Shown in pieces: positions 9,301 to 56,600 of a stretch of 64,000 nt of DNA. The notes beneath the pieces are model-generated. The model was not told the origin of the DNA. It did not search any database and was given only the letters and a program-made list of their open reading frames with translations. The stretch comes from Apteryx mantelli (lineage: Eukaryota > Chordata > Aves > Apterygiformes > Apterygidae). The first letter of the stretch is position 1. Every line of letters starts with the position of its first letter. The position numbers were made by a program, and so were the translations under genes. Where the stretch lies: contig NC_090018.1 of the NCBI RefSeq assembly GCF_036417845.1, forward strand, positions 1-64,000. The letters are read 5' to 3'.

Positions 9301-12300
9301 TAGGGGGTCCCCAGAGCCTCTTTGGGTCCTCCTGGAGGGTCTTCAGGTCCTCCTGTGGGTCGCTAGAATAGCCAGGTCCTCCTAGGGGGTCCCCAAGGCA
9401 GCCGAGGTCCTCCCAGGGGGTCCCCAGAGCCCCCCAGGTCCTCCCAGAGCCCCCCAGGTCCTCCCTGGGGGTCCCCAAGGCAGCCGATGTCCTCCCAGGG
9501 GTCCCCAGAGCCTCTTGGGGTCCTCCTAGGGGGTCCTCAGGTCCTCCCAAGGGGTCCCCAGAGCCCCCCAGGTCCTCCCAGGGGGTCCCCAATACAGCCA
9601 AGGTCCCTCCCAGGGGGTCCCCAGAGCCCCCCAGGTCCTCCCAGAGCCCCCCAGGTCCTCCCTGGGGGTCCCTAATACAGCCAAGGTCCTTCCAGGGGGT
9701 CCCCAGAGCTCCCCAGGTCCTCCCTGGGGGTCCCCAATACAGCCAAGGTCCTTCCAGGGGGTCCCCAGAGCCCCCCAGGTCCTCCCTCGGGATCCCCAAT
9801 ACAGCCAAGGTCCTTCCAGGGGGTCCCCAGAGCTCCCCAGGTCCTCCCTGGGGGTCCTCAGGTCCTCCTGGGGGTCCCCAAAGTAGCTGGGTCCTCCCAG
9901 GGGGTCCCCAAGGCAGCCCAGGTCCTCCTAGGGGAGTCCCCAGAGCCCCTTAAGTCCTCCCCGGGGGTCTTCAGGTCCTCCCAGGGGTCCCCAAAATAGC
10001 CAGGGGGTCCCTAGAGCCCCCCCAAGTCCTCCCGGGGGGTCCCTATGGGGTGCTGGCTCCCCAGGCCATGGGGGGGGGGGCGGTGTTCTCCCCCCCGCCC
10101 CGGCCCCAGCTCCCCTCTTCCCCCCCAGGCGAGGTGCGGATGCCCTCGGGGAAGGTGGCGAAGCCGGACATCACGGACAACAAGGACGGGACGGTGACGG
10201 TGCGCTTCGCCCCCACCGAGGCCGGCCTGCACGAGATGGACATCCGCTACGAGAACATGCACATCCCAGGTGAGGTGGGGGGGGGTCGCCGTGGTTCCCC
10301 CCGCCCCGGGCTCGGAGGGGGGGTGTCCTCGTGACACCCTGCACCCCCCCCGTGACACCCTTTCCCCCCCCAACCCCAGGCAGCCCGCTGCAGTTCTACG
10401 TGGACTACGTGAACAGCGGCCACGTCACGGCCTACGGCCCCGGCCTCATCCACGGCACCGTCAACAAGCCCGCCACCTTCACCGTCAACACCAAGGACGC
10501 CGGCGAGGGTGAGCGCAGCGGCGCGGCGGCCTCTCCCGGACGCCCGGGTCCTCCCCGGTGCCCGCGGGGACCCCCTTGACCCCCACCCCTCTCCCCGCTT
10601 CCAGGTGGGCTCTCGCTGGCCGTGGAGGGACCCTCCAAGGCGGAGATCAGCTGCACCGACAACCAGGACGGATCGTGCAGCGTCTCCTACCTGCCCGTGC
10701 TGCCCGGCGACTACAGCATCGTGGTCAAGTACAACGACAAGCACATCCCGGGCAGCCCCTTCACCGCCCGCATCACCGGTACGGGGGGCTGGGGGGGGCC
10801 CCTGCGTCACCGCTACGGGGGGTCAGAGGGGGTCTGGGGGGCCCCTTCGCCATCTGTGTCACCAAAATGGGGAGGTTTGGGGGGTCATAGGGGTCCTGGG
10901 GGGCCCCTTCACCATCTGTATCACCAAAATGGGGAGGTTTGGGGGGTCATAGGGGTCCTGGGGGGCCCCTTTACCACCTGTATCACTAATACAGGGAGGT
11001 TTGGGGTGTCAGAGGGGTCTTGGGGAGCCCCTTCACCGCCCACATCACTGGTACGGGGGGCTGGGGGGGCCCTGCGTCGCCACTACGGGAGGGCTCTGGG
11101 TGTCAGAGGGGGTCTGGGAGGCCCCTTTACTGCTTCTGTCACCAATATGGGGAGATTTGGGGTGTCAGAGGGGGTCTGGGGGGCCCCTTCACCACCTGTA
11201 TCACTAATACAGGGGGGTTTGGGGTGTCAGAGGGGTCTTGGGGGGCCCCTTCACCACCTGTATCGCTAATACAGGGGGTTTGGGGTGTCAGAGGGGTCCT
11301 GGGGGGCCCCTTCACTGCCTATATCGGTGGTACAGGAGGTTTTGGGGTGTCTTGGGGGGCTGCTGTATTGCCTGCCTCACTGATAGGGGGTCCTGGGGGG
11401 GGGGCTCTGGGGCTCCTGGGGGTGCCCAAAGGTGCTCCGGGGGGCCCCAGGGACCACCTGAGGGTCCCCAGGTCGGTCCAGGGGGTGCCCCCCTCCCCCC
11501 GAAACCCCGCTAACCCGCCCCGCCCCCCCCGCAGGCGACGACAGCCTGCGCCTGTCGCACCTCAAGGTGGGCACCTCGGCCGACATCCCGCTGGACATCG
11601 GCGAGACGGACCTGAGCCAGCTCACGGCCACCGTCACCTCGCCCTCGGGCCGCGAGGAGCCCTGCCAGCTCAAGCGCCTGCGCAACGGCCACGTCGGTGA
11701 GCCGCAGGGGGACGCGGGGTGGGGGACGCAACGCGCATTGGGGGACGCCGCTGACCCGTCCCCGTCCCCCTCCGTGCGCAGGCATCTCCTTCGTGCCGCA
11801 GGAGGTGGGCGAGCACCTGGTGCACATCTCGCGCGGCGGGAAGCCGCTGGCCCGCAGCCCCGTGGCCGTCACCATCAGCCAGGCCGAGCTGGGCGACGCC
11901 AGCCGGGTGCGCGTGGCCGGGCCCGGCCTGCGCGAGGGCCGCACCTTCGAGCCGGCTCACTTCACCATCGACACCCGCGACGCCGGTACGCCCGGACGCC
12001 TGGGTCCCTGGCGGGGGGAGCCGGGACGTTTGGGGTGGAGCGGGAACCCCTGAACATCACACAGGGTGGATCGAGGCTCCCCGGGGGGTGGAGCGGGGGG
12101 GGTTCCCCCAGACACCTGGATCCCTGGGGGTGGAGTGGGGGCTCCCCCAGACGCCTGGGTCCCTGGGGGTGCAGCGGGGGGGGCCCCCCCGGACGCCTGG
12201 GCCCCCCCCGGACACCTGGGTCCCGTTGGCAGGCTACGGGGGGCTCAGCCTGTCCATCGAGGGCCCCAGCAAGGTGGACATCACCACGGAGGAGCTGGAG

Positions 12301-15300
12301 GACGGCACCTGCCGCGTCTCCTACTGCCCCACCGAGCCCGGCAACTACATCATCTCCGTGAAGTTTGGCGACCAACATGTCCCCGGTGGGCGCGGGGGGG
12401 GGAACTGGGAGCACTGGGGGGATGTACTGGGGCTGTCGGGGGGAACTGGGAGCACTGAGGCAGGATATGGGGCCAAACGGAGGCACTGGGGAGGACTGGG
12501 GGCACTGGGGGAGCCACTGCGGGCAAACGGGGGTGGCCGGGGAGGAACTGGGATTGCTGGGGGAACAGGGGTTACTGGGAGGGAACTGGGGGCACTGGGA
12601 GGGCCTGCTGTGGGCAAATAGGGGCAGCCGGGGAGGAACTGGGATCGCTGGGGGGGATTACTGGGGGAACAGGGGGTACTGGGAGGGAACAGGAGGTACT
12701 GGGAGAGTCTGCTGTGGGTGAGCTGGGGTAACTGGGAGGAGCTGCAGTTGCTGGGGGGGATTACTGGGGGAACTGGGGTTGCTAAGAGGGAACTGGGGTT
12801 ACTGGGAGGGAACTGGGGGCGCTGGGAAAGCGTTCTTGGGGAATCAAGGTTACTGGGGGGCAACTGGGATGCCGGGGGGGAGCCGGGGGTACTGGCTGCT
12901 CCCAACAGCTCTTTTGGGGGGATCAGAGAGGTTTGGGGGTGCAGCAGGAGCTGGGGGGCTTTGGGGTCCCCCGGGGAGGGGGTGGGGGTCCTGGGGGGGG
13001 CCGCCCTGACCCCCCCCCCCCCCCGGGCCCTGCAGGGAGCCCCTTCTCGGTGAAGGTGACGGGCGAGGGCCGGGTGAAGGAGAGCATCACGCGCCGGCGC
13101 CGGGCCCCCCCCGAGGCCAGCGTGGGCACCGCCTGCGACCTCAGCCTCAAGATGCCGGGTGAGAGCGGGGACGGGGGGGTCCCGGGGGGGTCTTTACAGG
13201 TCCTAAGTGTTCTGGGAGGTCCCTGCGGGGGGTCTTGGGTGGCTCAGAAGGTCTTGGGGGTCCCAGGAGGTTCTTGAGTGGCTCAGAAGGTCTTGGGGGT
13301 CCCGGGAGGTTCTTGGGTGGCCCAGAAGGTTTTGGGGGGTCCCAGGAGGTTCTTGAGTGGCCCAGAAGGTCTTGGGGGGTCCCAGGAGGTTCTTGAGTGG
13401 CCCAGAAGGTCTTGGGGGGTCCCAGGAGGTTCTTGAGTGGCCCAGAAGGTCTTGGGGGTCCCAGGAGGTTCTTGGGTGGCTCAGAAGGTCTTGGGGGTCC
13501 CAGGAGGTTCTTGGGTGGCTCAGAAGGTCTTGGGGGTCCCAGGAGGTTCTTGGAGCATCTCAGGAGGCTTCTGGGGGGTTTGGGTGGGACCTGAGGGAGG
13601 GAATAGGACAGGGACAGGGTCTATGGGGCCCGCGGGGACCCATTGGAGGTCCCTGAGGACACGTGGGGGGACCCCAAGGACAGGTTGGGGGCCTGTGGGG
13701 ACCTCGAGGGGGTGGGGGAAGATGGGGCGAAGGCCTGGGGGTCCATGGGGACGTATAGGGGGTGCACAAACAGCCAGGATGAGGTCTGCAGGGACCCCAG
13801 GGACATGTGGGGGGTCCTCGGGGAGCCCGGCGCGCGTCGGGACCCCCCCCCCGTGACCCGCCTCCCCGCAGAGCTGAGCCCCCACGACGTGACGGCAGTG
13901 GTGACGGGCCCCTCGGGCCAGGCGGTGGCGGCCCAGGTGCTGGAGGGCGACGGCGGCGCCTACTGCATCCGCTTCGTGCCCGCCGAGACAGGCGTCCACT
14001 CGGTCAGCGTCAAGGACCGGGGGCAGCACGTGCCCGGCAGCCCCTTCCAGTTCACCGTGGGGCCCCTGGGCGAGGGGGGCGCCCACAAGGTCCGCGCCGG
14101 CGGCCCCGGCCTCGAGCGGGCCGAGGCCGGAGTGCCAGGTGAGCGGCGGCGCCCCGAAACCCACCCGGAGCTTCTCAAACTCGGCCGGGGAGCCTTGAAC
14201 CTGCTTTGGGCGTCCCAGAACCTGCCCCGAGTTCCCTGAGCCCTTCTAGGGCACCTGGAGCTGCCTGAGGTGCCCCCAAAACCTACCTAGAGCTCCCCCA
14301 AACCCCTCTAGGGCACCTGGAGCTGCTTGAGGCACCCCAAAACCCACCTAGAGCTCCCCCAAACCCCTCTAGGGCACCTGGAACTGCTTGAGGCACCCAA
14401 AACCCACCTAGAGCTCCCGAAAACCCCCTTGGGGCTGCCCAAACCCCTCTAGGGCACCTAGAGCTGCCTGAGGTGCCCCAAAACCCACCTAGAGCTCCCC
14501 AAAATCGCCTTGGGGCTGCACCAACCCCTCAAGAACACCTGGATCTGCCTGAGGTGCCCCCCAAACCCCTCTAGGGTACCTGGAGCTGCCTGAGGTGCCC
14601 CCAAACCCACCTAGAGCTCCCGAAAACCCCCTTGGGGCTGCCCAAGCACAGCTTAGGGCTTCTGAGTCTGCTTGAGGCACCCCAAAACCTAGATAGGGCT
14701 TCCCAAACCCCTCTAGGGCACCTGGAGCTGCCTGAGGTGCCCCCAAACCCACCCAGAGCTCCCCAAAACCCCCTTGGGGCTGCCCAAACACAGCTTAGGG
14801 CTCCTGAGTCTGCTTGAGGCACCCCAAAACCTACATAGGGCTCCCCAAAGTTCACTTTGGGCTGCCCAAACCCAGCTGGGGCACCTGACTCTGCCTAAGG
14901 TGCCTCCAAACCCACCCAGAGCTCCCCAAAACACCCCTTGGGGCTGCCCAAACCTAGGCAGGGCTCCTGAATCCTCTTCAAGCACCCCAAAACCCAACTA
15001 GGGCTCCCCAAAACTGGCTTTTCACCCCGTCCCCGCTCCCCCCCCCCTTACAGCCGAATTCAGCATCTGGACGCGGGAGGCGGGCGCCGGGGGCCTCTCC
15101 ATCGCCGTCGAGGGGCCCAGCAAGGCCGAGATCGCCTTCGAGGACCGCAAGGACGGCTCCTGCGGGGTCTCCTACGTCGTCCAGGAGCCCGGTACGGTGG
15201 TGGGGGGGGTGTTTTGGGGGGTGTCGCGGGGCTCTAAAAGAGCAGTAACGGGGTTGGGCCCCCCCCGCCAATGCCGTCACCGTCCCTACAGGCGACTACG

Positions 15301-18300
15301 AGGTGTCGGTGAAGTTCAACGAGGAGCACATCCCCGACAGCCCCTTCGTGGTGACGGCCGCGGCCCCCTGCGACGCCGCCCGGCGCCTCACTGTTTCTAG
15401 CCTTCAGGTGACGGCACCGGGAGAAACCCCCCCACACCTCGTAAACCCCCCCCGGCTGGGCCACGGGCCGGGCACGCGCAGGGGCCGGGGGCTCCGGGCG
15501 GCTTTTGGGGGTCTCTAGAGAGATTTTGAGGGTATCTAGAGGGGGTTCGAGTGAGAGTTTGGAGGAGTATGGAAGGGCTGCGGGGCTCTAGGAGGGCTTT
15601 GGTGAGGTTTGGGGGGCATCTAGGGGGGCTGCGTAGCTCTAGGGGGCTTTAGTGAGGTTTTGGGGGTGTCCAGGGGGGGCTGCAGTACTCAAGGGGGTCT
15701 AGAGAGATTTTTGGGGGCATCTAGAGGGGTTGAAGGGGTTTTAATGAGAGTTTGGAGGTCTCTAGAGGGGCTGCAGGGCTTATGGGGGTCTTCAGTGAGG
15801 TTTTGGGGGTGTCTAGGGGGGCTGCAGGGCTCAAGGAGGTCCTTAGTGAGGTTTTGGGGGTGCCTAGAAGGGCTGCAGAGCTCAAGGGGTTCTTCAGTGA
15901 GGTTTTGGGGGTGTCTAGGGGGCTGCAGGGCTCAAGGAGGTCCTTAGTGAGGTTTTGGGGGTGTCTGGAGGGGCTGAAGGGGGTTTTGGGGGGTCTCTAG
16001 AGGGGCTGTGTAGCTCTAGGGTGGCTTTAGTGAGGTTTTGGGGGTGTCTAGAGAGATTTTGGGGGTGTCTAGAGGGGCATCAGGGGGTTTGGGGGGCTTG
16101 TGGGGCACCTGTGTGTCTCCAGGGGTCTTTAGGGGAGTTTGGGGGGGGTCTGTAGCTCTCTAGGGAGCCGTTTTGGGGAGTCTGCGAAGGTCTAGAGGGA
16201 TTTTGGGGTCCCTGCGCTGGCCCAGGCGGCCCGGTGTGTCCCCCAGCCGTCCCGGGGGGCCCCGGGGGTCTTCTCTCGTGTCTCTTTTAAAGGCTATTAA
16301 CAGCCCCCCCCCCCCTCGGGGGGGCGACCTCGGGGCCCAGACGGGCCTTAACGGGAGAGAACGGCCCCCCCAAACCCCCCCCAGCACCCCCAAACCCCGG
16401 GGACGCCAGGGCCCCCCGTTCTCTCCCGTTAAGCTCTCTGGCCCCCCAAAAGGTAAGTGGGGCACTGGGTAGGGGATGGGGGGGTTCCCCTGACACCCCC
16501 AAATCCTTCCCGGGCCCTGGGGGGGGCACACAGCACCCCCAAATCGGAGGGGGGGGGATTCCCCAGCCCCCTAAATCCTTCCCTGCCTCTGGGGAACCCC
16601 TGAAATCGGGGGGGGTTGGTTAAAACCCTTCCCCCGAGGCAAAGGTTTTGGGGTGGGGATCCCCCCTCTGGTGTGATTTTGGGGGTCTGGTTCCCCCCCA
16701 CCCCAGGGTCGTTTTGGGGTACGATTTCCCCCTTCCCCGGGGGGGGATCTTGGGGTGCAGATCCCCCCCGGGGTTGTTTTGGGGTGCGAGGTTCCCCCTC
16801 CGGGGTTATTCGGGCTCTTGATCACGCCAGGGTTGTTTGGGGTGGGGGATTCGGGGGGCAAAAGCCCCCGGGGTTATTCAGGGTGGGGATTTTGGGTGCG
16901 AATGACCCCCAGGGATATTCAAGGTGAGGATTTAGGGGTGCAGATGCCCCCTGGGGCTATTTGGGGGAGGCTTTGGGGTGCAGGTGCCCCCCAGGTTTCT
17001 TCAGGAGGAACATTTTGGGTGTTAAACCCCCCAAATAACCACAGGGTTATTTGGGGTGAGAATTTTGGGGTGCTGATCCCCCCTGGGGTTATTTGGGGTG
17101 AGGTTTTGGGGGCGCTAATCCCCCCCAGGGTTATTTGGGGTACAGTTTTGGGGTCCAGATGCCCCCCGGCTTTATTTGGGAGGAACATTCTGGGGTATTA
17201 ATCCCCCAGGGTTATTTGGGGCAAAGTTTGGGGGTGTTAATCCCCCCCGGGGTTATTTAAGGCACGGTTTTGGGGGCGCTAGTCCCCCCCAGGGTTATTT
17301 GGGGTGAGGTTTTGGGGTGCTAGTCCCCCCCGGGGTTATTTGGGGTGAAGTTTGGGGGCAGTAATCCCCCCGGGGTTATTTAAGGCATGGTTTTGGGGGT
17401 GCTAATCCCCCCGGGGTTATTTAAGGCACAGTTTTGGGGGCACTAGTCCCCCCCCAGGATTATTTGGGTGAGGTTTTGGGGGTGCTAATCCCCCTGGGGT
17501 TATTTAAGGCACATTTTTGGGGGTGCTAGTCCCCCCCGGGGTTATTTGGGGTAAGGTTTTGGGGGTGCTAATCCCCCCCGGGTTTTTTTGGGGTGAGGTT
17601 TTGGGGGTGCTAATCCCCCCTGGGGTTATTTGGGGTGAAGTTTGGGGCATTAATCTCTCCCGGGGTTATTTAAGGCATGGTTTTGGGGGCGCTAGTCCCC
17701 CTGGGGTTATTCGGGGTGAGGTTTTGGGGGCGCTAATCCCCCTGGGGTTATTCAGGGTGAGGTTTTGGGGGTGCTAATCCCCCCCAGAGTTATTTGGGGT
17801 GAGGTTTTGGGGTGCAGCTGCCCCCCCCCAAGGCTTTTCAAGACGACCATTTCCAGGCGTTAATCACCCCGGCATCATTCCGAGGGTGCAACCCCCCCCC
17901 GGGGTGGGTGTTTCAGGTATGAGGGGGGGGGGGTCAGGATGGGGGTCCCCCGGTCCCTGGGTGCCCCCGGGTTGGGGGGGGCTCCCCCCCCCCGCTAACG
18001 TCTCCGCCCCCCCCAGGAGTCGGGGCTGAAGGTGCACCAGCCGGCCTCCTTCGCCGTCAGCCTCAACGGGGCCAAGGGGGTGCTGGACGCCAAGGTGCAC
18101 AGCCCCTCGGGGGCCCTCGAGGAGTGCCACATCACCGAGGTCACCGAAGGTGAGGGGGCCCAGGCGTCCGGGCGACGCCCTCCCCCCCCCCCCCGGGGCC
18201 CGGGCGGCCGGCGATGAGGGGGGGGCCCAGGCGTCCGGGGGCCTCCCGCCCTCCCCGAGGACCCAGGCGTCCCGGCTCCCTCCCGGCAGCGCGGTGAGCT

Positions 18301-20557
18301 CGTTCCTGCTAGAGGAGGGGGGGGAAAGGCCGGGGGGGGGCGCTGGGTTTTGGGGGAGCTGGGGGGGTCACCCCCTTTTCGGGGGGCCCCCCTGACCCCG
18401 TCGGCTCGGTTTCAGAGCCCCCCCACACTTGGAGGGGGGGAATTTGGGGAGTCTCCCTGGCCTCAGTGTAGGGTATTTTGGGATCCTCTGCCCAAATTCC
18501 TCCAATCCCAGTCTGGGGGGGGGCCTGGCTGACCCTGCTGGGCACATTTTGGGGCCCCCCCTGCTTTCTGGGGGTGACCCTGGTGATTTTGGGATGCCCC
18601 ACGCACCCGAATCTTTTTGGGGGGGGGGTCCAGGAGGTTTGGGGCACCCTTTGAGCCTCAGGGGTGCCCGGCGGTGGCCGCGCTCACCCCGCGGGGCCCC
18701 TCTAGGATTTGCTGGGGGATTTTCAGGCTGGGTGTTGTTTATTTTGGGGGGGGGTCGCGGCGGGTTTGGGGGCCCCCCGCTGACCCCCATCGCCCCCCCC
18801 CCCCGCCCCCCGTCCCCCCAGACAAATTTGCCGTGCGGTTCATCCCGCGGGAGAACGGCGTCTACTCCATCGACGTCAAGTTCGACGGCTCGCACATCCC
18901 CGGCAGCCCCTTCAAGGTGCGGGTGGGCGAGCCGGGCCAGGCCGGCGACCCCGGCCTCGTCTCCGCCTACGGCCCCGGCCTCGAGGGCGGCACCACCGGT
19001 ACGTGTACGTGTGTGTGTTTGGGGGGGCCCCTATAGGGCTGGGGGGGTGGCCCCTATGGGGTCCGACAGGGCCCTTATGGGGTGCGGGGCGGGGGGACGC
19101 CGGGGCAGGCGGGCGCCTCCGGCTTCGTCTCCGCCTGCGGCCTCGGGGCGGGGGCAACGCGGGTAGGTCCTGGGAGCAGGGGGGTCCTATAGGGTCCTAC
19201 AGAGCCCCTATGGGGGCCCTACAGTGTTCTATAGGCCCCTATGGGGTCAGGGGGGACCCTACAGGGCCCTTATGGGGTCGTAGAGGATCCTGTGTGGCCC
19301 TACAGGACCCTTATGGGATTGTGGGGAAGGGTCTTGTGGGGTCCTACAGGACCTTTATAGGGTTATGGGGCACTCTATGGGGTCCTGCAGGCCCCTGTGG
19401 GGTCGGGGGGGGCCCTACAGTCTTCTATAGGCCCCTGTGGGGTCTTAGGGGATCCTGTGTGGCCCTACAGGGCCCTTATGGGATCATGGTGGGGGGGGGA
19501 TTGTGGGGTCCTACAGGATCATGGGGGGGACGCTATGATGTTGGGGGACCCTGTGGGGTCCTATAGGGCCCTATGGGGCTGTAGGCATCCTTATGGGGTT
19601 GGCAGGGGGAGGCCTACAGTGTCCTGCAAGCCCCTATGGAGTCTTAGGGGCCCCTATGGGGTCCTAGGGGTCTTTGTGGGGTTGGGGGGCCCTGTGGGGT
19701 CTTATAGAGCCCTTACAGGGTCATAGGGGACCCTATGGGGTCCTGCGGGGCCCCTATGGAGTCAGGGAGGCCCTACAGCATCCCACAGCTCCCTGTGGGG
19801 TCCCACAGGGTCCTATGGCGTCCTGGAGAGCCTTGTGGGGTTGGGGGCCCTATGGGAGTCATAGGGGGCCCTATGGGGTCCTATAGGGCTCTCCAGGGTC
19901 ATAAGGGCCCCCATGGGATCCTGCAGGCCCCTATGGGGTTGGGGAGGACCCTACAGCATCCTGCAGGCCCCTATGGGGTCCTGGAGAACCTTATGGGCTT
20001 GGGGAGGGGGGGGGGGTCCTATGGAGTCGTAGGAGACCCAGTGGTGTCAGGGAGTCCTACGGAGTGACAGGGGCCCCTATGGGGTCGGGGGAGGGGGGGC
20101 CCTATAGCATCCTATAGGTCCCCGTGGGTTGTGGGGGGGAAGGGGGCCCTGCAGAGTCCAACAGGCTCCCGGTGGGTCACAAGAGATGCTACGGGGTCGG
20201 GGCCAGGGGAGGGGGGCATGAGCTGCAGTGGTGTCACGCGCCCCACAGCGTCATGTGCCCCCTGGTGACATGCGCCCCACGGTGTCACCTGCCCCACGGC
20301 GTCGTGTCCCCCCCGCCCCCCCAGGCTCGCCGGCGGAGTTTGTGGTGAACACGGCCAAGGCGGGCCCCGGGGCGCTGGCCGTCACCATCGACGGCCCCTC
20401 CAAGGTGAAGATGGAGTGCCGCGAGTGCCCCGAGGGCTACCGCGTCACCTACACCCCCCTGGCCCCCGGCAGCTACCTCATCGCCGTCAAGTTCGGGGGG
20501 CCCCACCACATCGCCGGCAGCCCCTTCAAGGCCAAGATCACCGGTGGGGGGCCGCGA
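133..20557 (+). CDS. FLNA: Filamin A, partial (repeats 8-23), 25 exons
   Basis: Actin-crosslinking scaffold of the cortical cytoskeleton. Coding exons: 133-395, 1804-2402, 2502-2675, 2812-2974, 3467-3626, 3714-3883, 5571-5694, 5804-5960, 7205-7394, 7687-7710, 8427-8674, 8759-8861, 10129-10269, 10380-10508, 10605-10778, 11535-11696, 11782-11985, 12233-12385, 13036-13158, 13872-14138, 15054-15191, 15292-15407, 18017-18149, 18822-18998, 20325-20543 or to the gap. Exon phases join consistently once three 1-nt indels (2239, 3480-3483, 3852-3856) are allowed for. Each Ig-like repeat shows the GPGL start, DNxDGT turn and IPGSPF end. Hinge-1 flank ([23 protein letters not shown]) and SIGGHGLG match FLNA rather than FLNB or FLNC. 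The actin-binding domain and repeats 1-7 lie left of the window; hinge 2 and dimerizing repeat 24 are lost in the N gap. Paralogue choice is from remembered family sequences. Confidence 0.95.
396..1803 (+). repeat. FLNA intron filled by GGTCCCCAGTAAGGGG minisatellite
   Basis: From about 600 to 1740 the intron is a degenerate tandem array of roughly 30-40 bp units built on GGTCCCCAGTAAGGGGGTGT and GGTGATGGGGG. No coding homology is visible; open frames here are read-through of the repeat. 396-600 is G/C-rich and unremarkable. Confidence 0.85.
1804..2402 (+). CDS. FLNA: FLNA large exon: repeats 9, 10 and start of 11 (one frameshift)
   Basis: Acceptor CCACAG ends at 1803; donor AAG G|GTGCGT. 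Starts [11 protein letters not shown] and contains the repeat 9 core [19 protein letters not shown], repeat 10 ([14 protein letters not shown]) and the start of repeat 11 ([11 protein letters not shown]). At 2239 an extra A splits the conserved DNGD-GTYTIAY turn: the frame before 2238 reads DNGD and the frame from 2240 reads [17 protein letters not shown]. Exon length is 599; 598 would keep phase. Confidence 0.92.
2502..2675 (+). CDS. FLNA: FLNA exon: repeat 11 core
   Basis: Acceptor CCCCGCAG, donor GAG G|GTGAGA. Encodes [37 protein letters not shown] and VEYTPYEE, matching filamin A repeat 11 closely. Confidence 0.93.
2812..2974 (+). CDS. FLNA: FLNA exon: end of repeat 11 and start of 12
   Basis: Acceptor CACCCCAG, donor ACC CG|GTGAGC. 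Encodes [40 protein letters not shown] and [13 protein letters not shown]. The upstream intron (2676-2811) has a TCCTCC pyrimidine tract. Confidence 0.93.
2975..3466 (+). other. FLNA intron, C-rich, short CCCTCGCTCCCCCCAAACCTG triplication
   Basis: Contains three near-identical copies of a 20-21 bp C-rich unit at about 3170-3235 and further CCCCAAA runs. No coding or regulatory signal recognised. Confidence 0.7.
3467..3626 (+). CDS. FLNA: FLNA exon: repeat 12 core (one frameshift)
   Basis: Acceptor TCCCCAG, donor CCC G|GTGAGC. Expected [20 protein letters not shown] is interrupted: the G-run at 3480-3483 has four G where five are needed, so the frame shifts between GAGTG and GLGLAVEG. Downstream reads [17 protein letters not shown] and [11 protein letters not shown]. 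Length 160; 161 keeps phase. Confidence 0.92.
3714..3883 (+). CDS. FLNA: FLNA exon: end of repeat 12, repeat 13 (one frameshift)
   Basis: Acceptor GCCCCCAG, donor AAA G|GTGGGC. Encodes [40 protein letters not shown] and TSKAGVAP. The C-run at 3852-3856 lacks one C, breaking [15 protein letters not shown]. Length 170; 171 keeps phase. Confidence 0.91.
3884..5570 (+). repeat. FLNA intron minisatellite GGGATGCTATAGGGTCTCAGGG
   Basis: About 4020-5520 is a tandem array of 50-65 bp units around GGGATGCTATAGGGTCTCAGGG, CACCCTATGGGGTGCTCTAG and TCTTGGGGCAACCTAT, with larger higher-order blocks of several hundred bases. No coding signal. Confidence 0.88.
5571..5694 (+). CDS. FLNA: FLNA exon: repeat 13 end
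   Basis: Acceptor CCCCCAG, donor CGC AG|GTGAGC. Encodes [40 protein letters not shown]. Confidence 0.93.
5804..5960 (+). CDS. FLNA: FLNA exon: repeat 14 first half
   Basis: Acceptor CGGCGCAG, donor ATC ACG|GTGGGG. Encodes [40 protein letters not shown] and [13 protein letters not shown], nearly identical to mammalian FLNA. Confidence 0.95.
5961..7204 (+). repeat. FLNA intron minisatellite GGGACAGGGATGTGAGCAGG
   Basis: About 5965-7190 is purine-rich on the plus strand: degenerate 20-40 bp units of GGGGACAGGGATGTGAGCAG and GGAAGGGGTTGGGGACAG. It is a long polypurine/polypyrimidine stretch. No coding signal. Confidence 0.88.
7205..7394 (+). CDS. FLNA: FLNA exon: repeat 14 second half
   Basis: Acceptor CCGCCGCAG, donor ACC G|GTGAGC. 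Encodes [39 protein letters not shown] and [10 protein letters not shown]. Confidence 0.95.
7687..7710 (+). CDS. FLNA: FLNA 24-nt micro-exon (VSIGGHGLG)
   Basis: Acceptor CTCTAG and donor TTA G|GTAAGC flank 24 nt that, with the preceding G, encode VSIGGHGL plus half a glycine codon. Filamin A has this alternatively used 8-residue exon at the start of repeat 15. Skipping it keeps frame. Confidence 0.92.
7711..8426 (+). other. FLNA intron, mostly single copy
   Basis: 716-bp intron without a tandem array, unlike its neighbours. It holds the AT-rich cluster described separately and G/C homopolymers. The branch and pyrimidine region before 8426 is C-rich. Confidence 0.7.
7895..8010 (+). promoter_or_regulatory. 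AT-rich ATTA-motif cluster in a FLNA intron
   Basis: In a surrounding of extreme GC, 7966-8000 reads TTTAATTTAATTAGATAATA followed by ATTAAGTGGTTAATT, and 7890-7897 carries another TAATTAG. Several TAATTA/TTAATT cores of the type bound by homeodomains lie within about 110 bp. Function is inference only. Confidence 0.3.
8427..8674 (+). CDS. FLNA: FLNA exon: repeat 15
   Basis: Acceptor GGGGCAG, donor GTC ATG|GTGAGC. Encodes [40 protein letters not shown] and [14 protein letters not shown], the end of rod 1. Confidence 0.95.
8759..8861 (+). CDS. FLNA: FLNA exon: truncated hinge 1 and start of repeat 16
   Basis: Acceptor TTCGCGCAG, donor ACG G|GTGAGA. Encodes [20 protein letters not shown] and [14 protein letters not shown]. 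The approximately 30-residue proline/glutamine-rich stretch that precedes ERPLVGVNG in mammalian FLNA is absent, and the 84-bp upstream intron has no room for it. Confidence 0.93.
8862..10128 (+). repeat. FLNA intron minisatellite AGGTCCTCCCAGGGGGTCCC
   Basis: About 8930-10040 is a tandem array with 35-65 bp units built from AGGTCCTCCCAGGGGGTCCC and CAGAGCCCCCCAGGTCCTCC, with AATACAGCCAAGGTCCTTCC variants. No coding signal. Confidence 0.88.
10129..10269 (+). CDS. FLNA: FLNA exon: repeat 16
   Basis: Acceptor CCCCCCAG, donor CCA G|GTGAGG. Encodes [40 protein letters not shown] and ENMHIP. Confidence 0.95.
10380..10508 (+). CDS. FLNA: FLNA exon: repeat 16 end and 17 start
   Basis: Acceptor AACCCCAG, donor GAG G|GTGAGC. 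Encodes [40 protein letters not shown]. Confidence 0.95.
10605..10778 (+). CDS. FLNA: FLNA exon: repeat 17 core
   Basis: Acceptor CTTCCAG, donor ACC G|GTACGG. Encodes [40 protein letters not shown] and SPFTARITG. Repeat 17 binds GPIb-alpha in mammals. Its tail (SPFTARITG plus donor) is re-duplicated in the next intron. Confidence 0.95.
10779..11534 (+). repeat. FLNA intron array carrying copies of the preceding exon tail
   Basis: About 10790-11380 is a 60-70 bp tandem array of roughly eight units. Each contains a version of GCCCCTTCACCGCCCGCATC and ACCGGTACGGGG, the last ~30 nt of the 10605-10778 exon with its donor. The unit at 11022-11060 encodes SPFTAHITG and keeps GGTACGG; other units have diverged (CACCATCTGTATCACC). 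Confidence 0.85.
11535..11696 (+). CDS. FLNA: FLNA exon: repeat 18
   Basis: Acceptor CCCCGCAG, donor GTC G|GTGAGC. Encodes [40 protein letters not shown] and RLRNGHV. Confidence 0.95.
11782..11985 (+). CDS. FLNA: FLNA exon: repeat 18 end and 19 start
   Basis: Acceptor GTGCGCAG, donor GCC G|GTACGC. Encodes [40 protein letters not shown] and [14 protein letters not shown]. The donor is followed at once by the CCCGGACGCCTGGGTCCC motif. Confidence 0.95.
12233..12385 (+). CDS. FLNA: FLNA exon: repeat 19 core
   Basis: Acceptor GTTGGCAG, donor CCC G|GTGGGC. Encodes [40 protein letters not shown] and FGDQHVP. Repeats 19 and 21 bind integrin beta tails in mammals. Confidence 0.95.
12386..13035 (+). 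repeat. FLNA intron minisatellite GGGAACTGGGGGCACTGGGA
   Basis: About 12395-12900 consists of 30-40 bp degenerate units of GGAACTGGGGTTACTGGGAG with CACTGGG and ATTGCTGGGGG variants. Confidence 0.85.
13036..13158 (+). CDS. FLNA: FLNA exon: repeat 19 end, repeat 20 start with RRRR basic patch
   Basis: Acceptor CCCTGCAG, donor CCG G|GTGAGA. Encodes [40 protein letters not shown]. The mammalian PKA/PAK phosphosite (RRRAPS, Ser2152) aligns with the second proline of RRRAPP. Confidence 0.94.
13159..13871 (+). repeat. FLNA intron, 40-bp tandem repeat
   Basis: About 13230-13560 holds eight or so near-identical 40-mers of GGCCCAGAAGGTCTTGGGGG followed by GTCCCAGGAGGTTCTTGAGT. The rest to 13871 is G-rich and non-repetitive. 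Confidence 0.88.
13872..14138 (+). CDS. FLNA: FLNA exon: repeat 20 and start of 21
   Basis: Acceptor CCCCGCAG, donor CCA G|GTGAGC. Encodes [60 protein letters not shown] and LERAEAGVP. Confidence 0.95.
14139..15053 (+). repeat. FLNA intron minisatellite ACCTGGAGCTGCCTGAGGTG
   Basis: About 14170-15000: units of 60-190 bp combining ACCCACCTAGAGCTCCCC, CCTTGGGGCTGCCCAAAC and TAGGGCACCTGGAGCTGCCT in a higher-order array. Confidence 0.87.
15054..15191 (+). CDS. FLNA: FLNA exon: repeat 21
   Basis: Acceptor CCTTACAG, donor CCC G|GTACGG. Encodes [40 protein letters not shown] and YVVQEP. Repeat 21 is the main integrin/migfilin-binding repeat in mammals. Confidence 0.95.
15292..15407 (+). CDS. FLNA: FLNA exon: repeat 21 end, 22 start
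   Basis: Acceptor CCCTACAG, donor CTT CAG|GTGACG. Encodes [39 protein letters not shown]. Confidence 0.95.
15408..18016 (+). repeat. Long FLNA intron with two distinct minisatellites
   Basis: 15500-16160 is an array of 55-65 bp units of GTGAGGTTTTGGGGGTGTCT followed by AGGGGGGCTGCAGGGCTC. 16630-17830 is a second array of 45-60 bp units of CCCCGGGGTTATTTGGGGTG, AGGTTTTGGGGGTGCTAATC. Between them, 16200-16600 is single-copy C/G-rich DNA; the 14-mer AACGGGAGAGAACG at 16351-16364 recurs inverted at 16419-16432, a potential stem. Confidence 0.85.
18017..18149 (+). CDS. FLNA: FLNA exon: repeat 22
   Basis: Acceptor CCCCCCAG, donor GAA G|GTGAGG. Encodes [40 protein letters not shown] and EVTE. Confidence 0.95.
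18150..18821 (+). other. FLNA intron with dispersed CCCAGGCGTCCGGG motifs
   Basis: 672 bp, without a large array. Three CCCAGGCGTCC motifs lie within 18155-18270; the remainder is G-rich single-copy sequence with no coding homology. Confidence 0.7.
18822..18998 (+). CDS. FLNA: FLNA exon: repeat 22 end, 23 start
   Basis: Acceptor CCCCCCAG, donor ACC G|GTACGT. Encodes [40 protein letters not shown] and [14 protein letters not shown]. Confidence 0.95.
18999..20324 (+). repeat. FLNA intron minisatellite GGGGTCCTATAGGGCCCCTA
   Basis: About 19170-20110: units of roughly 60 bp built from TATGGGGTCCTACAGGGCCC and CTTATGGGGTC. 20200-20320 is single copy with three CACGGTGTCAC-like words. Confidence 0.86.
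20325..20557 (+). CDS. FLNA: FLNA exon: repeat 23 core, runs toward the gap
   Basis: Acceptor CCCCCCAG. Encodes [40 protein letters not shown] and [19 protein letters not shown]. Either a donor ACC G|GTGGGG ends the exon at 20543 or it reads on as GGGPR into the N run; mammalian FLNA continues TGPRL here, so both remain possible. Repeat 23 helps bind FilGAP in mammals. Confidence 0.9.
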
Positions 20558-20791: not shown

Positions 20792-43402
<22,611 letters not shown>

Positions 43403-46455: not shown

Positions 46456-46499
46456 AGCACCCCAACCCCTCACGGGGTGCTGCTCATGGCTGCAGGGCA

Positions 46500-48285: not shown

Positions 48286-48480
48286 AATGCAACAACCCCC
48301 ACACTGCAATAGTCGCTGCATTGCGCCCCCAGCAATGCCACGACCCCCCCACCTTGCAAAACCACCCCCCCGCTCCAGCAATGCAGCGACCCCCCCTTTG
48401 CAAAATTCCCCCCCCACCAGCAATGCCAGACACCCCGCCAGCTGCAAAACTGCTCCGCTGCAATGCAATGACCCCCCCCC

Positions 48481-48513
<33 letters not shown>

Positions 48514-49400: not shown

Positions 49401-49439
49401 CCGGTCCCGGACACCCCCCTCCCGGTCCTGGACCCCCCC

Positions 49440-49700: not shown

Positions 49701-50600
49701 CCCTTGTGTCCCCCCCCGTGTCCCCTCCGTGGCGTGTCCCTGCGTGTCCCATGTCCCCCCCCGTGTCCCCATGTCCCCTGCGTGGCATGTCCCCCCGTGT
49801 CCCCTGCGTGCCCCATGGCGTGTCCCTTGTGTGTCCCCCCATGTCCCCTGCGTGTCCCCATGGTGTGCACCTACGTGTCCCCTGCATGTTCCCCCGCGTC
49901 CCTTGCATGTCCCCCCATGTCCCCTACGTGTCCCGTGTGTTCCCCCGTGCCCTCCCATGTCCCCTGCGTGTCCCCATGGTGTGCACCTATGTGTCCCCTG
50001 TGTGTTCCCCCATGTCCCTCGCGCATCCCCCCATGTCCCCTACGTGTCCCCTCTGTGTTCCCCTGTGTCCCTTGCGTGCCCTGTGTGTGTCCCCGCGCCC
50101 ATTGCATGGTCACCTGTGTCCCATGTGTGTCCCTGTCCCATGCGTGTCCCCTGCTTGTCCCCTGCCTGTCCCGTGTGCCCATGTCCCTTGCACGTTCCCT
50201 GTGTCCCGTGTGTCTCTTGCGTGTCCCTCATTGCATGTCCCCTGCGTGGCCATGTGTCCCTGTGTCCCCACGTGTCCCCCGTATGGCCGTCATGTGTCCC
50301 TGCGTGTCCCCCATGGGGCCGTCCCGTGTCCCCCACCTGTCCCATGTGCCCGTGTCCATTGTATGTTCCCCATGTCCCCTGCGTGTCCCTCATGTGTCCC
50401 TCGTGTATCCCCCCATGTCCCTTGCATGTCCCCATGCGTCCCCCGTGTGTCCCCTGCATGTCCTTTGCATGTTCCCCCGTGTCCCTTGGGTGTCCCTTGC
50501 ATGTCCCCCGCTTGTTCCCCATATGTCCCCCGCATGTCCCCCACATGGTCCCCGCGTGTCCCCCGCGTGGCCATCGCGTGTCCCCACGTGTCCCCGCGTG
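49700..50600. repeat. GTCCCCTGCGTGTCCCCATG array
   Basis: Degenerate 15-70 bp units of CCCCTGCGTGTCCC, CATGGCGTGTCCC and TTGCATGTCCCC between ATP2B3 and the BGN poly(A) site. Confidence 0.86.
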
Positions 50601-50613
50601 TCCAGCCGGTCCC

Positions 50614-50619
50614 TTTATT
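50614..50619 (-). terminator. BGN: BGN poly(A) signal AATAAA
   Basis: Minus-strand GTCAATAAAGGG in an A/T-containing stretch (CAATAACCGCGGGTCAATAAA), followed by G-rich downstream sequence. It is the only such signal between BGN and ATP2B3. Confidence 0.8.
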
Positions 50620-53600
50620 GACCCGCGGTTATTGCACAAAGATTTTTACAACGAGGAAAAACCGAAGAACAGTTAAAACCCCCCAAACGGCCCCGAAACG
50701 GCCCCGCCGGGGGGGGGGAGGGGGGAGGAGGAGGAGGGGGGCCCCTCCCCCCCCCAGATCTTTGGGGCCAGAAAGGGGCGAAACGGTAAAGTCAGCCGGG
50801 AGGGTAGGGGGGGACACACACGACAGCGGGACACGGCCCCCCCCGCCCAGCGGGGACAGGGCGCCCGTGTCCCCGGTGTCCCCTGCACCCGTGGGTGCCC
50901 CTGTCACCCTCTGTCCCCCATGTCCCCCCATGTCCCCCTGCTCCCACAAACGCCCCTGGGTGTCTGTGACATCCCCATGTCCCCCCATGTCCCTTATGTC
51001 CCCCTGTGTCCCTGCTCCCACGAACACCCGTGGGTGTCCGTGACGTCCCCGTGTCCCCCATGTCCCCACATCCCCCTGCTCCCACAAACACCCGTGACGT
51101 CCCTGTGTCCCCCCACGTCCCCTATGTCCCCCCATGTCCCCATGTCCCCCCTGCTCCCATGAACATCCGTGGGTGTCTGTGACGTCCCCGTGTCCCCATG
51201 TCCCATGTCCCCTATGTCCCCCTGCTCCCACAAACACTCATGACATCCCCGTGTCCCCTATGTCCCCATGTCCCCCTGCTCCCACGAACACCCGTGGGTG
51301 TCTGTGACGTCCCTGTGTCCCCCCGTGTCCCCTATGTCCCCACGTCCCCCCACTCCCACGAACATCCGTGGGTGTCTGTGACATCCCTGTGTCCCTCCAT
51401 GTCCCCTATGTCCCCACGTCCCCCCGCTCCCACGAACATCCGTGGGTGTCTGTGACATCCCCGTGTCCCTGTGTCCCCCCATGTCCCCTATGTCCCCACG
51501 TCCCCCCACTCCCACGAACATCCGTGGGTGTCTGTGACATCCCCGTGTCCCCATGTCCCCCACATCCCCTATGTCCCCAGGTCCCCCTGCTGCCACGAAC
51601 ACCCGTGGGTGTTGTGATGTCCCCCCATGTCCCCTGTGTCCCCACGTCCCCCTGCTGCCACGAACATCTGTGGGTGTCCATGACGTCCCCGTGTCCCCAT
51701 GTCCCATGTCCCCTATGTCCCCCTGCTCCCACAAACACTCATGACATCCCTGTGTCCCCTATGTCCCCATGTCCCCCTGCTCCCACGAACACCCGTGGGT
51801 GTCTGTGACATCCCCACGTCCCTGTGTCCCCCCGTGTCCCCTATGTCCCCACGTCCCCCCGCTCCCACCAACACCCGTGGGTGTCTGTGACGTCCCCGTG
51901 TCCCCATGTCCCACGTCCCCTATGTCCCCCTGCTCCCACAAACACTCATGACATCCCCGTGTCCCCTATGTCCCCACGTCCTCCTGTTCCCATGAACACC
52001 CGTGGGTGTCTGTGACATCCCTGTGTCCCTGTGTCCCCCGTGTCCCCTATGTCCCCACGTCCCCCCGCTCCCACCAACACCCGTGGGTGTCTGTGATGTC
52101 CCCGTGTCCCCATGTCCCATGTCCCCTATGTCCCCCTGCTCCCACAAACACTCATGACATCCCCGTGTCCCCTATGTCCCCATGTCCCCCCGCTCCCATG
52201 AACACCCGTGGGTGTCTGTGACATCCCTGTGTCCCCCCATGTCCCCTATGTCCCCATGTTCCCCCTGCTCCCACGAACACCCGTGGGCGTCTGTGACATC
52301 CCCACGTCCCTGTGTCCCCCCGTGTCCCCTATGTCCCCACGTCCCCCCGCTCCCACCAACACCCGTGGGTGTCTGTGACGTCCCCGTGTCCCCATGTCCC
52401 ATGTCCCCTATGTCCCCCTGCTCCCACAAACACTCATGACATCCCTGTGTCCCCTATGTCCCCACGTCCCCCTGTTCCCACGAACACCCGTGGGTGTCTG
52501 TGACGTCCCCATGTCCCTGTGTCCCCCCGTGTCTGCTATGTCCCCACGTCCCCCCGCTCCCACCAACACCTGTGGGTGTCCCCACGTCCCCATTACTTGC
52601 AGCCGCCGCGGGGGGGGGGGAAGGCACGCGTCCCCGCAGCATCCCCGCGGTGTCGGTGTCGCTGTCCCCACGGTGTCCCCGCCGGGGGGGGACACACACG
52701 CGCGGGGACGTCACTTGTAGTTGCCGAAGTGGAGGGCGAGGCGGTCGGCGAGGCAGCGGAAGGCGGCGGGCGGCACGGCGCCGGGCGCCACGGGGTTCCC
52801 GAACAGGCTCAGGCCCTGGTAATGGGCCCGCTTGGCCCCGGGGGGGGCGCAGAAGTCCTGAGCCCCCACCCGCGAGATGTTGTTGCCGTGCAGGTACACC
52901 ACCTGCGGGGGGGGGGGGGACACGGGGGGGGGACGCGGGGGGGACACGGGGGGGACACACGGGGGGGACATGGGGAGGATACAGGGGGGGACACGGGGGG
53001 GACAAGGGGGGGACACGCAGGGGACACACGGGGGGACATGGGGGGGACATGGGGGGGACACGGGGGGATACAGGGGGGATATGGGGGGGACACGGGGGGG
53101 ACAAGGGGGGACACACAGGGGGACATGGGGGGGACATGGGGGGGACACACGGGGGGGACATGGGGAGACACAAGGGAAAGGGAGAGATGTCAGTGGTGTG
53201 AGCAGACACCCGGTGCTCCCAGTGCTCCCAGTGCCTCCCAGTGTCCCCCCCAGTGACTCCCCAGTGCCCCCCAGTGCCTCCCAGTGCCCCCCAGCGCCTC
53301 CCAGTGCCCCCCAGCGACTCCTCAGTGCTTTCCAATGCTTCCCAGTGCCCCCAGTGCCCCCCAGTGCCCCCAGTGCCTCCGGGTGCCCCCCAGTGCTCCC
53401 CAGTGCACCCAGTGACCCTTCAGTGCTTCCCAGTGCCCCCGGTGCTTCCCAGTGCCTCCAGGTGCCCCCCAGTGACTCCTTTGTGCTTTCCAGTGCTTCC
53501 CAGTGCTTCCCAGTGCCTTCCAGTACCCCCCAAGTGTCCCCCCGAACCCCCCAATGGATCCCCCAATGGATCCCCCCCGATCCCCCGCACCGTGAGCAGG

Positions 53601-56600
53601 CGCAGGCTGGGCAGCCCCGGGGGGACCCGGCACAGCTGGTTATGCTCCGGGCGCAGCTCCCGCAGGGATCCCCACCCCCCCCCCGATGGATGGATCCCCC
53701 CAATGGATCCCCCCGATGGATCCCCCCCGATCCCCTGCACCGTGAGCAGCCGCAGGCTGGGCAGCCCCGGGGGGACCCGGCGCAGCCGGTTGTGCTCCAG
53801 GCGCAGCTCCCGCAGGGATTCCCACCCCCCCGATGGATGGATCCCCCCGATGGATCAATGGATCCCCCCGATGGATCCCCCCCGACGGATCCCCCGCACC
53901 GTGATCAGCCGCAGGCCGGGCAGCCCCGGAGGGACCCGGCGCAGCCGGTTGTGCTCCAGGCGCAGCTCCCGCAGGGATTCCCACCCCCCCGATGGATGGA
54001 TCCCCCCGATGGATCAATGGATCCCCCCGATGGATCCCCCCCGACGGATCCCCCGCACCGTGAGCAGCCGCAGGCCGGGCAGCCCCGGAGGGACCCGGCG
54101 CAGCCGGTTGTGCTCCAGGCGCAGCTCCCGCAGGGATCCCCACCCCCCCCGATGGATGGATCCCCCCGATGGATCAATGGATCCCCCCGATGGATCCCCC
54201 CCGACGGATCCCCCGCACCGTGAGCAGCCGCAGGCCGGGCAGCCCCGGGGGGACCCGGCGCAGCCGGTTGTGCTCCAGGCGCAGCTCCCGCAGGGATCCC
54301 AGCGGGCTCAAGCCGCCCTCCGCCACCTCCCGGATCTCGTTGTGGCCCAGGCCCAGCCTGGGGGACGGACGGACGGACGGACATGGGGGGGGGGGACACA
54401 CGGGGGGGGGGGGACACGGGGACACACACGGTCAGTGAGGGACCCCCGCCTGCCCCAGGGCTCCCGCTGCCCCCCCCCACTGCCCCCCATCCTGCTCCCA
54501 GTCCCTCCCAGTTGCTCCCAGTGCCCCCCCAGTATCCCCAGTCCAGCCCCCAGCGTCCCCCCAGCATCCCCCATCCTGCTCCCAGTCCCTCCCAGTTGCT
54601 CCCAATCCTGCCCTCAGTCACTCCCAGTAGGTCCCGGTTCCCCCCAGTGTCCCCAATCCTGCCCCCAGTCCCTCCCAGTCCCTCCCAGTTGCTCCCAGTC
54701 TCCCCAATCCTGCCCCCAGTCGCTCCCAGTGCCCCCCATCCTGCTGCCAGTCACTCCCAGTCCCTCCCAGTCGCTCCCAGTGCCCCCCATCCTGCCCCCA
54801 GTCCCTCCCAGTTGCTCCCAATCCTCTCCAGTGTCCCCAGTTTTGCCCCCAGTTGCTCCCAGTCGCTCTCAGTGCTCCCATCCTGCTCCCAATCCCTCCC
54901 AGTGCCCCCCATCCTGCCCCCAGTCGCTCCCAGTCCCTCCCAGTATCCCCCATCCTGTTCCCAGTCGCTCCCAGTATCCTCCATCCTACCCCCAGTCGTT
55001 CCTAGTCACTCCCAGCTCCCCCCAGTGTCCCCCATCCTGCCCCCAGTCGCTCCCAGTTGCTCCCAGTGCCCCCCGTCCTGCCCCCAGTCGCTCCCAGTCG
55101 CCCCCAGTGCCCCCCATCCTGCCCCCAGTCGCTCCCAGTCGCCCCCAGCGCCCCCCGTACCGGGCGAGCTGCCCGTAGCGCTTGAGGTCGTCGCGCTCGA
55201 TGGTCTGGATGCGGTTGTGGTCGAGGTGCAGCTCCCGCAGGGTCTCGGGGAGGTCTGGGGGGCGCGCGGGGACACGCGGGGACACGTGGGGACACGGGAG
55301 TACACGAGGGACACGGGGACGGAGAGGACACGGGGACAGAGACGCGGGATGGCGACAGGGAGATGCGCGGGGCACAGAGCACAGCGCGGGGACAGCAGGT
55401 GGCAGGAAGGTGGCAGGGAGGCGATGGAGCGAGATGCGAGGTGGCAAGGAGGCGGCAGGGAGGTGACAAGGAGGGGACAGGCCCTTACCTTTGGGGACGC
55501 TGGTGAGGCGGGCCTCGGAGACGCGCCGGAAAGGGACAGAGATGGCAAGGAGGTGGCAGGGAGGTGGCAGGGAGGCGATGGAGCGAGATGCGAGGTAGGA
55601 GGGAGGTGACAGGACGAGATGGGAGGTGGCAGGGAGGGGACAAGGAGGGGACAAGCCCTTACCTTTGGGGACGCTGGTGAGGCGGGCCTCGGAGACGCGC
55701 CGGAAGGGGACGGAGGCGGCAGGGAGGTGGCAGGGAGGCGATGGAGCGAGATGCGAGGCAGCCGGGAGGTGGCAGGGAGGTGACAAGGAGGTGACAAGGA
55801 GGGGACAGGCCCTTACCTTTGGGGACACTGGTGAGGCGGGCCTCGGAGACGCGCCAGAAGGGGACGGAGGTGGCAGGGAGGTGGCAGGGAGGCGGCAGGG
55901 AGGTGACAAGGAGGGGACAGGCCCTTACCTTTGGGGACGCTGGTGAGGCGGGCCTCGGAGACGCGCCGGAAGGGGACGGAGGTGGCAGGGAGGCGGCAGG
56001 GAGGCGGCAGGGAGGCGATGGAGCGAGATGCGAGGCGGCAGGGAGGTGGCAGGGAGGCGGCAGGGAGGGGACAAGGAGGGGACAGGCCCTTACCTTTGGG
56101 GACGCTGGTGAGGCGGGCCTCGGAGATGCGCAGGTAGTTGAGCTTGAGGCCGGCGAAGGCGCCGGGCTCGAAGCCGCTGTTGTCCAGGGGGTTGCCCCCC
56201 ATCTCTGCGGCGGGGGGGGGGACGGAGACGGTGAGGCCGGGCGCGGGGCCGCCGGGCGTCCTCCCCTCCGCGTCCCCTCCGTGTCCCCTCCGTGTCCCGG
56301 GGGGGCGAGCCCCGCGCTCACCGATGCAGTTGACGTGGCGCAGGCCGCGGAAGGCGCGCCGCGGCACGGCGCGGATGCGGTTGTCGTGCACGCGCAGCTC
56401 CAGCAGCCCCGGCGGCAGCGGAGCCGGGATGGCCGCCAGGCGGTTGTGCGACAGGTAGAGCTTCTCCAGGCGCGTCAGCGGCGCCAGGGCCCCCGCGTGC
56501 ACCCGCCGCAGCCCGTTGTTCACCAGCACCAGCGCCTGGGCCCGCGCGCGGCGGCGCCGTCAGCGGGGGGCGGCGCGGGGGGGACGCGGGGGACGCGGGG

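Follow-up and report, generated by a model that had tools for sequence, protein, structure and literature searches.

Intronic tandem repeats carrying the preceding exon's end and splice donor in FLNA, ATP2B3 and BGN of Apteryx mantelli

Background

Tandem repeats that begin inside an exon and run on into the following intron raise the question of how an exon end comes to be multiplied there, and of whether the donor and the acceptor side are equally affected. Here, we address this question for the first 64 kb of contig NC_090018.1 of the bird Apteryx mantelli (RefSeq assembly GCF_036417845.1; this whole stretch of 64,000 nucleotides is called the window below), where introns of the genes FLNA, ATP2B3 and BGN contain repeat units that span the 3' end of the upstream exon plus its splice donor. 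The feature is a case of exon stuttering, described together with sequence stuttering from chicken dot chromosomes by Hron et al. (2026, Genome Biol Evol, PMC12954441), and the first-pass annotation of the window thus erred in stating that no named element shows this behaviour. As far as the main text of that account goes, the donor-side polarity reported here is the new part. Exon stuttering has been published without an established mechanism, and a donor bias would narrow the options to a splicing constraint on survival or to mutation tied to transcription, which predict different things in existing or obtainable data. Additionally, these genes, with their many near-perfect decoy donors, represent a natural experiment on 5' splice-site choice.

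Exon ends and donors in the window introns

We built models by hand for FLNA (+ strand, 24 exons), ATP2B3 (- strand, 20 exons) and BGN (- strand, 7 exons), and these 51 exons give 48 complete introns with GT-AG at every border. The intron positions are presumably conserved relative to the human genes. In six of the 48 introns, the repeat unit takes in the preceding exon's end and donor (one in FLNA, three in ATP2B3 and two in BGN), which matches the per-gene count of the first-pass annotation, where coordinates were not given for each array. These repeats are a real feature of the window. The six cases, and one further case in which an interior exon piece was copied (F23), are as follows.

10605..10778, + strand: FLNA exon F14, donor GTACGG, which is copied together with the exon's 3' end in the next intron
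10746..11351, + strand: F14 array, reaching 33 nt into the exon; six tail copies at 69-91% identity, GT kept in two
35770..36011, - strand: ATP2B3 exon E9, donor GTGAGT
33929..35746, - strand: E9 array; ten degenerate copies of tail plus donor at 70-73%, GT kept in nine
32554..32733, - strand: ATP2B3 exon E11, donor GTGGGC, entered by the array for 46 nt
31685..32599, - strand: E11 arrays (neighbours at 31685-32081 and 32121-32599); five tail copies at 69-97%, GT kept in three
28175..28386, - strand: ATP2B3 exon E16, donor GTGGGC, entered by the array for 44 nt
27113..28218, - strand: E16 array, comprising the Tandem Repeats Finder (TRF) array 27339-28218 and adjoining sequence; six tail copies at 92-94%, GT kept in five
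56094..56204, - strand: BGN exon B4, donor GTAAGG, entered by the array for 38 nt
55388..56131, - strand: B4 array; four tail copies at 97-100%, GT kept in all four
54219..54357, - strand: BGN exon B6, donor GTGCGG; copied piece of 82 nt, 99% identical
53216..54301, - strand: B6 array with a main unit of 159 nt; four tail copies at 94-100%, GT kept in all four
18822..18998, + strand: FLNA exon F23, of which an internal segment ending 20 nt short of the border is copied at about 19081-19146 (66-column match)

With the published screen settings (blastn-short, match of at least 20 nt, at least 42.1 bits), 15 matches were found in four of the 48 introns, all from the upstream exon and on the sense strand, and zero matches from the downstream exon were found in the same 48 introns. 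The top score in five sets of shuffled introns was 34.2 bits, compared to up to 155 bits in the real introns, and chance is therefore excluded for the clear window cases. F14 and F23 fall below the published cut (38.2 and 40.1 bits, respectively), and E9, the most degenerate of the six cases, was missed by blastn and caught by Smith-Waterman alignment. For the latter, the terminal 60 nt of each exon were aligned to its own intron, and an end was taken to pass if z exceeded 4 and all 60 shuffles scored lower; 9/48 donor ends did so, versus 0/48 acceptor ends. Seven of the nine (F14, the interior piece of F23, E9, E11, E16, B4 and B6) were judged sound, E9 being the weakest. The passes of ATP2B3 intron E17-E18, where the 28-nt match lies at the intron's far end, and of BGN intron B2-B3, with a score of 11.5, were considered doubtful and left uncounted.

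As a specificity control, a score of at least 18 with the 60-nt ends was reached by own donors in 6/48, by own acceptors in 0/48 and by non-adjacent pairs in 3/4512 comparisons, and no antisense comparison with the own intron reached 14. TRF arrays reach into the upstream exon in F14, E11, E16, B4 and B6, by 33 to at least 60 nt, and none enters the downstream exon among the 35 introns of at least 200 nt. Distal copies at or above 42.1 bits were absent from non-adjacent introns of the window genes, the best match there being BGN exon B5 in intron B6-B7 (38.2 bits), which is likely leucine-rich-repeat homology. The copied source lies at the exon border (0 nt) in E11, E16, B4 and B6, 1 nt from it in E9, 2 nt in F14 and 20 nt in F23, i.e. 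at most 1 nt away in 5/7 window cases. Simple repeats cover 0.76-0.95 of the intron in the six main cases and 0.49 of intron F23-F24. A claimed two-copy case at 42010-42055 failed, with an alignment score below that of most shuffles and no copy passing the 68% scan, and ATP2B3 exon E12 has an array 1 nt past its donor yet carries no exon copy.

Donor and acceptor sides along the contig

The comparison was extended to the next 250 kb of the contig (314 kb in total), with exons predicted by a small gene finder for which the window served as training set and which in a leave-one-gene-out test recovered 35/48 donors and 33/48 acceptors with three and five extra calls, respectively. Two further stretches, with only two weak exon predictions in one and none in the other, were left out of the counts. 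The genes beyond the window probably include long-wave opsin, blue opsin, RENBP, HCFC1, IRAK1, PHF8, HUWE1, TIMM17B, PRICKLE3 and SMC1A. Nine of ten queried proteins had a Pfam match (two of them are window genes, and the others matched JmjC, 7tm, HECT, SMC_N, PET, aminotransferase and kinase), and the Pfam query of TIMM17B gave no match.

For the full count, 213 whole exons (51 in the window and 162 outside) were each compared to the flanking sequence on either side, downstream and upstream, and matches had to reach a score of at least 17 and z>4. Before this count, the predictions at 121970-122400 (antisense to HCFC1) and 289609-289930 (an array reading frame), both with matches on both sides, were judged false exons and removed; the comparisons of array proximity and G-quadruplex (G4) motifs below also drop the predicted exon 293730-293924. 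Raw matches in the 314 kb numbered 14 on 210 donor flanks versus 3 on 213 acceptor flanks (sign test, p=0.013). On inspection, in judgements that were not blind to side, 11 of the 14 donor matches were kept, E9 was added (score 14.5, under the cut) and at most one weak acceptor match was kept, leaving 12 donor-side cases versus none or one on the acceptor side (p=0.0005 or 0.0034). Outside the window, five donor-side cases versus none or one remained. The first-pass annotation had looked to a wider scan for a strong donor-side excess; in the 250 kb added here the direction is the same, and the excess is significant when the window and the further sequence, all from one contig of one bird, are pooled, but the outside part is not significant alone.

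The polarity follows transcription rather than the DNA strand, as had been claimed for the window, where it is clear on both strands. The five kept cases outside the window also lie on both strands (contig positions):

79259-79498: blue-opsin-like exon, 85-nt match at 92%
193948-194110: PHF8 exon, four copies; this case follows a JmjC-domain exon
275639-275749: TIMM17B exon, four copies
279702-279815: PRICKLE3 exon, three copies
301408-301564: SMC1A exon, six copies

The donor matches set aside were HCFC1 120090-120497 (Ala-rich, interior), HCFC1 123380-123994 (coding repeats) and 278204-278423 (interior, ambiguous), and on the acceptor side those at IRAK1 144770-145042 (a Pro/Gly-rich exon, low complexity) and at 293730-293924 (a probable false acceptor ahead of the SMC1A start). 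Weak matches of 60-nt ends at 274839-274902 (donor, score 14) and 291596-291908 (acceptor, score 15) were lost at the cuts of the full count. The HCFC1-like exons, at about 121559-123994 of the contig, hold a coding tandem repeat with units CSNPPCETHETGTT, which the screen picked up as exon copies.

Position of arrays relative to splice sites

Further arrays close to donors had been placed at 5-15 nt in the first-pass annotation; the closeness holds, and the gaps span 4-21 nt.

54476..55156, - strand: BGN array, 4 nt past donor 55161, exon copy not detected
42343..43189, - strand: ATP2B3 array, 11 nt past donor 43201, exon copy not detected
32790..33527, - strand: ATP2B3 array, 21 nt past donor 33549, exon copy not detected
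24632..25147, - strand: ATP2B3 array, 11 nt past donor 25159, the sole exon-tail match of the intron lying at its far end
23769..24209, - strand: ATP2B3 array, 16 nt past donor 24226, exon copy not detected

Of 34 array-bearing window introns 200 nt or longer, 25 have the array closer to the donor and 9 have it closer to the acceptor (binomial p=0.009), and the median gap in the window is 59 nt on the donor side versus 106 nt on the acceptor side. Outside the window, 43 exons had arrays in both flanks, each flank at least 200 nt long, and in 33 of these the array was nearer the donor versus 10 nearer the acceptor (Wilcoxon p=0.0008; median gaps 40 versus 146 nt).

As a separate observation, the 3' end of ATP2B3 intron E17-E18 (window 24398-24425, - strand) resembles the tail of E17 (28 nt, z 9.4), and the acceptor of this intron has no pyrimidine tract, as if the exon-tail copy provides the acceptor AG.

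Shared changes and retained donors among the copies

Copy bases that are absent from the exon are more often shared than singleton in E9 (12 shared, 7 singleton), F14 (11, 6) and SMC1A (12, 6), and all ten E9 copies read CAG at the border where the exon reads CAA. Such shared derived bases fit one capture, and they suggest that amplification inside the array followed it. Singletons exceed shared changes in E16 (2 shared, 5 singleton) and B6 (1, 3), over the short tail compared, and the longer E16 alignment has changes common to most copies. Identities between copy and exon range from 0.69 to 1.00, which points to captures of different ages. The copying direction was probably from exon to intron, because residues expected from the human protein persist in the exon while the copies drift. 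By eye, microhomology is likely at the capture junctions of B6, E11 and F14.

The copied GT is retained in 42/53 copies, and identity at the copied donor is 0.85 for G and 0.91 for T versus 0.84 at copied exon sites, with no visible depletion of the GT. In-frame use of the copied donors is not favoured, as E9 and B6 reach a stop ahead of the first copy and the offsets across arrays fall in all frames.

Genomic setting

The contig to which the window belongs is 357,424 bases long, in an assembly of 1.504 Gb and 408 contigs. GC content varies from 54.6 to 71.7% between 2-kb pieces of the window, 59.6% of the window lies in TRF arrays with a period of at least 10 nt, and most of its introns are filled with tandem repeats. 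The contig is probably an avian dot microchromosome: its 357 kb are mostly 63-75% GC, and a PHF8-like gene is present (JmjC match), a gene placed on chicken dot chromosome 29 in the main text of Hron et al. (2026, PMC12954441). Positions 190001-250000 of the same contig have a GC content of about 66-72% and a tandem-repeat cover of 0-15% per 10 kb, so high GC alone does not make arrays. The exons FLNA 1804-2402 and ATP2B3 24226-24397 are out of frame and were left unaltered in the models; these frame breaks are probably assembly indels in homopolymers. Four gaps of 200 N lie within the first 264 kb of the contig.

Discussion

We favour, with modest confidence, an account in which the edge of an array captures the exon end, the captured unit is amplified, and the products survive mainly on the donor side owing to geometry and splice tolerance; our confidence is modest because the sample outside the window is not significant by itself. 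Intron minisatellites would expand by slippage or unequal exchange, and an array abutting an exon may occasionally take in the exon edge through one tandem-duplication step, after which the captured unit would be amplified within the array. Captures would survive chiefly on the donor side: a donor requires only about six intron bases, so that arrays can directly abut the exon, whereas on the acceptor side repeats have to stay out of branch point, pyrimidine tract and AG. Further, a copied donor would lie downstream of the real one, which would be transcribed and recognised first, so that the copy could be tolerated, while a copied acceptor would lie upstream of the real one and would be met and used first. 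In this chain, the duplication step, the tolerance in splicing and the selection against acceptor copies are what we infer from the patterns described above.

Several points weigh against this account. Outside the window alone, raw matches number 8 on the donor versus 3 on the acceptor side (p about 0.23, calculated by hand; not significant), and 60-nt ends at a score of at least 14 and z>4 give, again outside the window, 4 donor versus 2 acceptor matches in 118 exons and 5 versus 3 in 46 exons. An ambiguous weak acceptor-side match of 27 nt is present at HUWE1 220153-220307, and contig C31, with ten predicted exons (one scoring below 20), showed capture on neither side. Capture given array proximity differs between sides with p=0.28, 0.15 and 0.10 at 5, 10 and 20 nt, becoming significant from 30 nt up, and five captured arrays have a gap of 0 since they extend into the exon. 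Singletons exceed shared changes in PHF8 (3 shared, 25 singleton), E11 (9, 14) and TIMM17B (1, 5), and the GT is itself part of the copy scan, along with four more donor bases, so that retained GT is favoured. Competition between 5' splice sites can favour the donor nearer the acceptor, and donor copies would then be harmful too. Finally, the main text of the chicken study says that PHF8 intron 18 derives partly from exon 19 (PMC12954441), by its numbering the downstream exon, and a donor-only rule may thus not be absolute; the PHF8 case on the present contig is probably in a different intron.

Geometry alone offers a simpler alternative, with symmetric mutation, no splicing filter, and acceptor sequence holding arrays about 100 nt off the downstream exon. 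The shorter donor-side gaps in both parts of the contig agree with it, as do capture rates that are not significantly different for arrays within 5-20 nt (6/24 donor versus 0/11 acceptor flanks within 10 nt, p=0.15). However, with arrays within 30-75 nt, captures remain donor-only (p=0.028 to 0.005), for example 10/67 donor versus 0/44 acceptor flanks within 50 nt (p=0.006), in counts that comprise the inspected cases and do not treat the HUWE1 match as a capture. Taken together, these proximity counts make geometry part of the answer to the donor bias, perhaps not all of it, and we think it improbable as the sole explanation. The first-pass annotation had named R-loop- or G4-linked replication slippage at G-rich donors as possible causes. 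In the corresponding alternative, transcription-coupled mutation, R-loops or G4 structures on the displaced G-rich strand just 3' of donors would cause slippage, so that the polarity would be mutational and not selective. Within the first 100 nt of the intron, a sense G4 motif is more frequent at copied-end donors (9/12) than at other donors (47/129, p=0.013), with antisense motifs at 0/12 versus 30/129 and positive sense GC skew at 10/12 versus 75/129. No significant enrichment is seen relative to uncopied donors that have an array no more than 30 nt away (sense motif 20/35, p=0.32; antisense 7/35; median sense skew 0.31 for copied versus 0.30 for these uncopied donors), the BGN B4 (56094-56204) and PHF8 cases are C-rich on the sense strand, and the six window cases have sense skews of either sign across the whole intron, from +0.40 to -0.47. 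This cause is thus not established, and we regard it as unlikely. It is likewise doubtful that the machinery at 5' splice sites (R-loop, stalled polymerase or repair) makes the donor edge a mutational origin of minisatellites with one-sided amplification; if true, transcription would write a strand-specific signature into the germ-line genome.

The remaining alternatives concern the data themselves. Repeats at exon edges might have been multiplied or collapsed by an assembly or long-read artefact, which would be in line with the probable indel errors in the two out-of-frame exons and with the four N gaps noted above, yet the copies differ from each other by many substitutions and share derived states in several arrays, and raw nanopore reads were used to check the chicken PHF8 introns, according to the main text of PMC12954441; we consider such an artefact very improbable. 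Similarity by chance or low complexity did produce some raw matches, such as those judged to stem from the Ala-rich HCFC1 exon and the Pro/Gly-rich IRAK1 exon, but given the shuffled introns, the non-adjacent pairs and the antisense comparisons, we attach next to no credence to it as a general explanation.

Compared with published exon stuttering, the likeness lies in direct tandem copies of an exon edge across the exon-intron border, local to the adjacent intron, in a GC-rich stretch of a bird chromosome and with imperfect units of tens to hundreds of bases. In chicken, according to the main text of PMC12954441, 115 genes and 236 introns are affected, 190 of these on dot chromosomes, and the source lies at most one base from the border in more than 90% of cases. 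Variation of intron length between individuals also belongs to the published phenomenon. The copies here are donor-sided, whereas that main text uses the words donor and acceptor once each, together, gives no split or bias by side, and does not include FLNA and ATP2B3. GC-rich avian genes described by Beauclair et al. (2019, PMC6792250) are similar in their GC-rich introns with tandem repeats and G4 motifs, but exon-derived units or splice-site polarity are not described in the parts of that paper available to us. Ordinary intronic minisatellites, or variable number tandem repeats, are also imperfect and arranged head to tail, and the present units differ in that they start inside the exon and include the donor. 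A literature search, with subscription journals mostly outside its coverage, found no other reports of exon-derived or donor-linked intron repeats. In intron gain by tandem genomic duplication, a tandem duplication reportedly copies a splice-competent exon piece. As far as the accessible text of PMC4974935 goes, a new intron arises in that process, whereas an existing intron grows here.

Additional observations

A genome search with PF00343 (glycogen phosphorylase), aimed at a second dot gene, gave 24 exon matches, all on contigs C3 and C4 (two loci), and it did not recover a third glycogen phosphorylase gene, that of the muscle type.

A dispersed motif, GGACGCCTGGGTCC, has 78 matches in the window at up to 2 mismatches versus 4.1 expected, and CCCGGACGCCTGGGTCC has 1499 exact occurrences in the 1.5-Gb genome (740 forward, 759 reverse) versus 0 and 1 for a backwards control. 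It presumably resembles a human GGACTCCTGGGTC minisatellite, and it differs from stuttering in not being local. The motif is present in introns of FLNA, ATP2B3 and BGN, at least five times at a distance of about 30 nt or less from a donor (a raw count), with GGACGCCTGGGTCC sites including 11994, 18156, 21066-21408, 38325, 38653, 42273, 57570-57798 and 59351-61469, among others.

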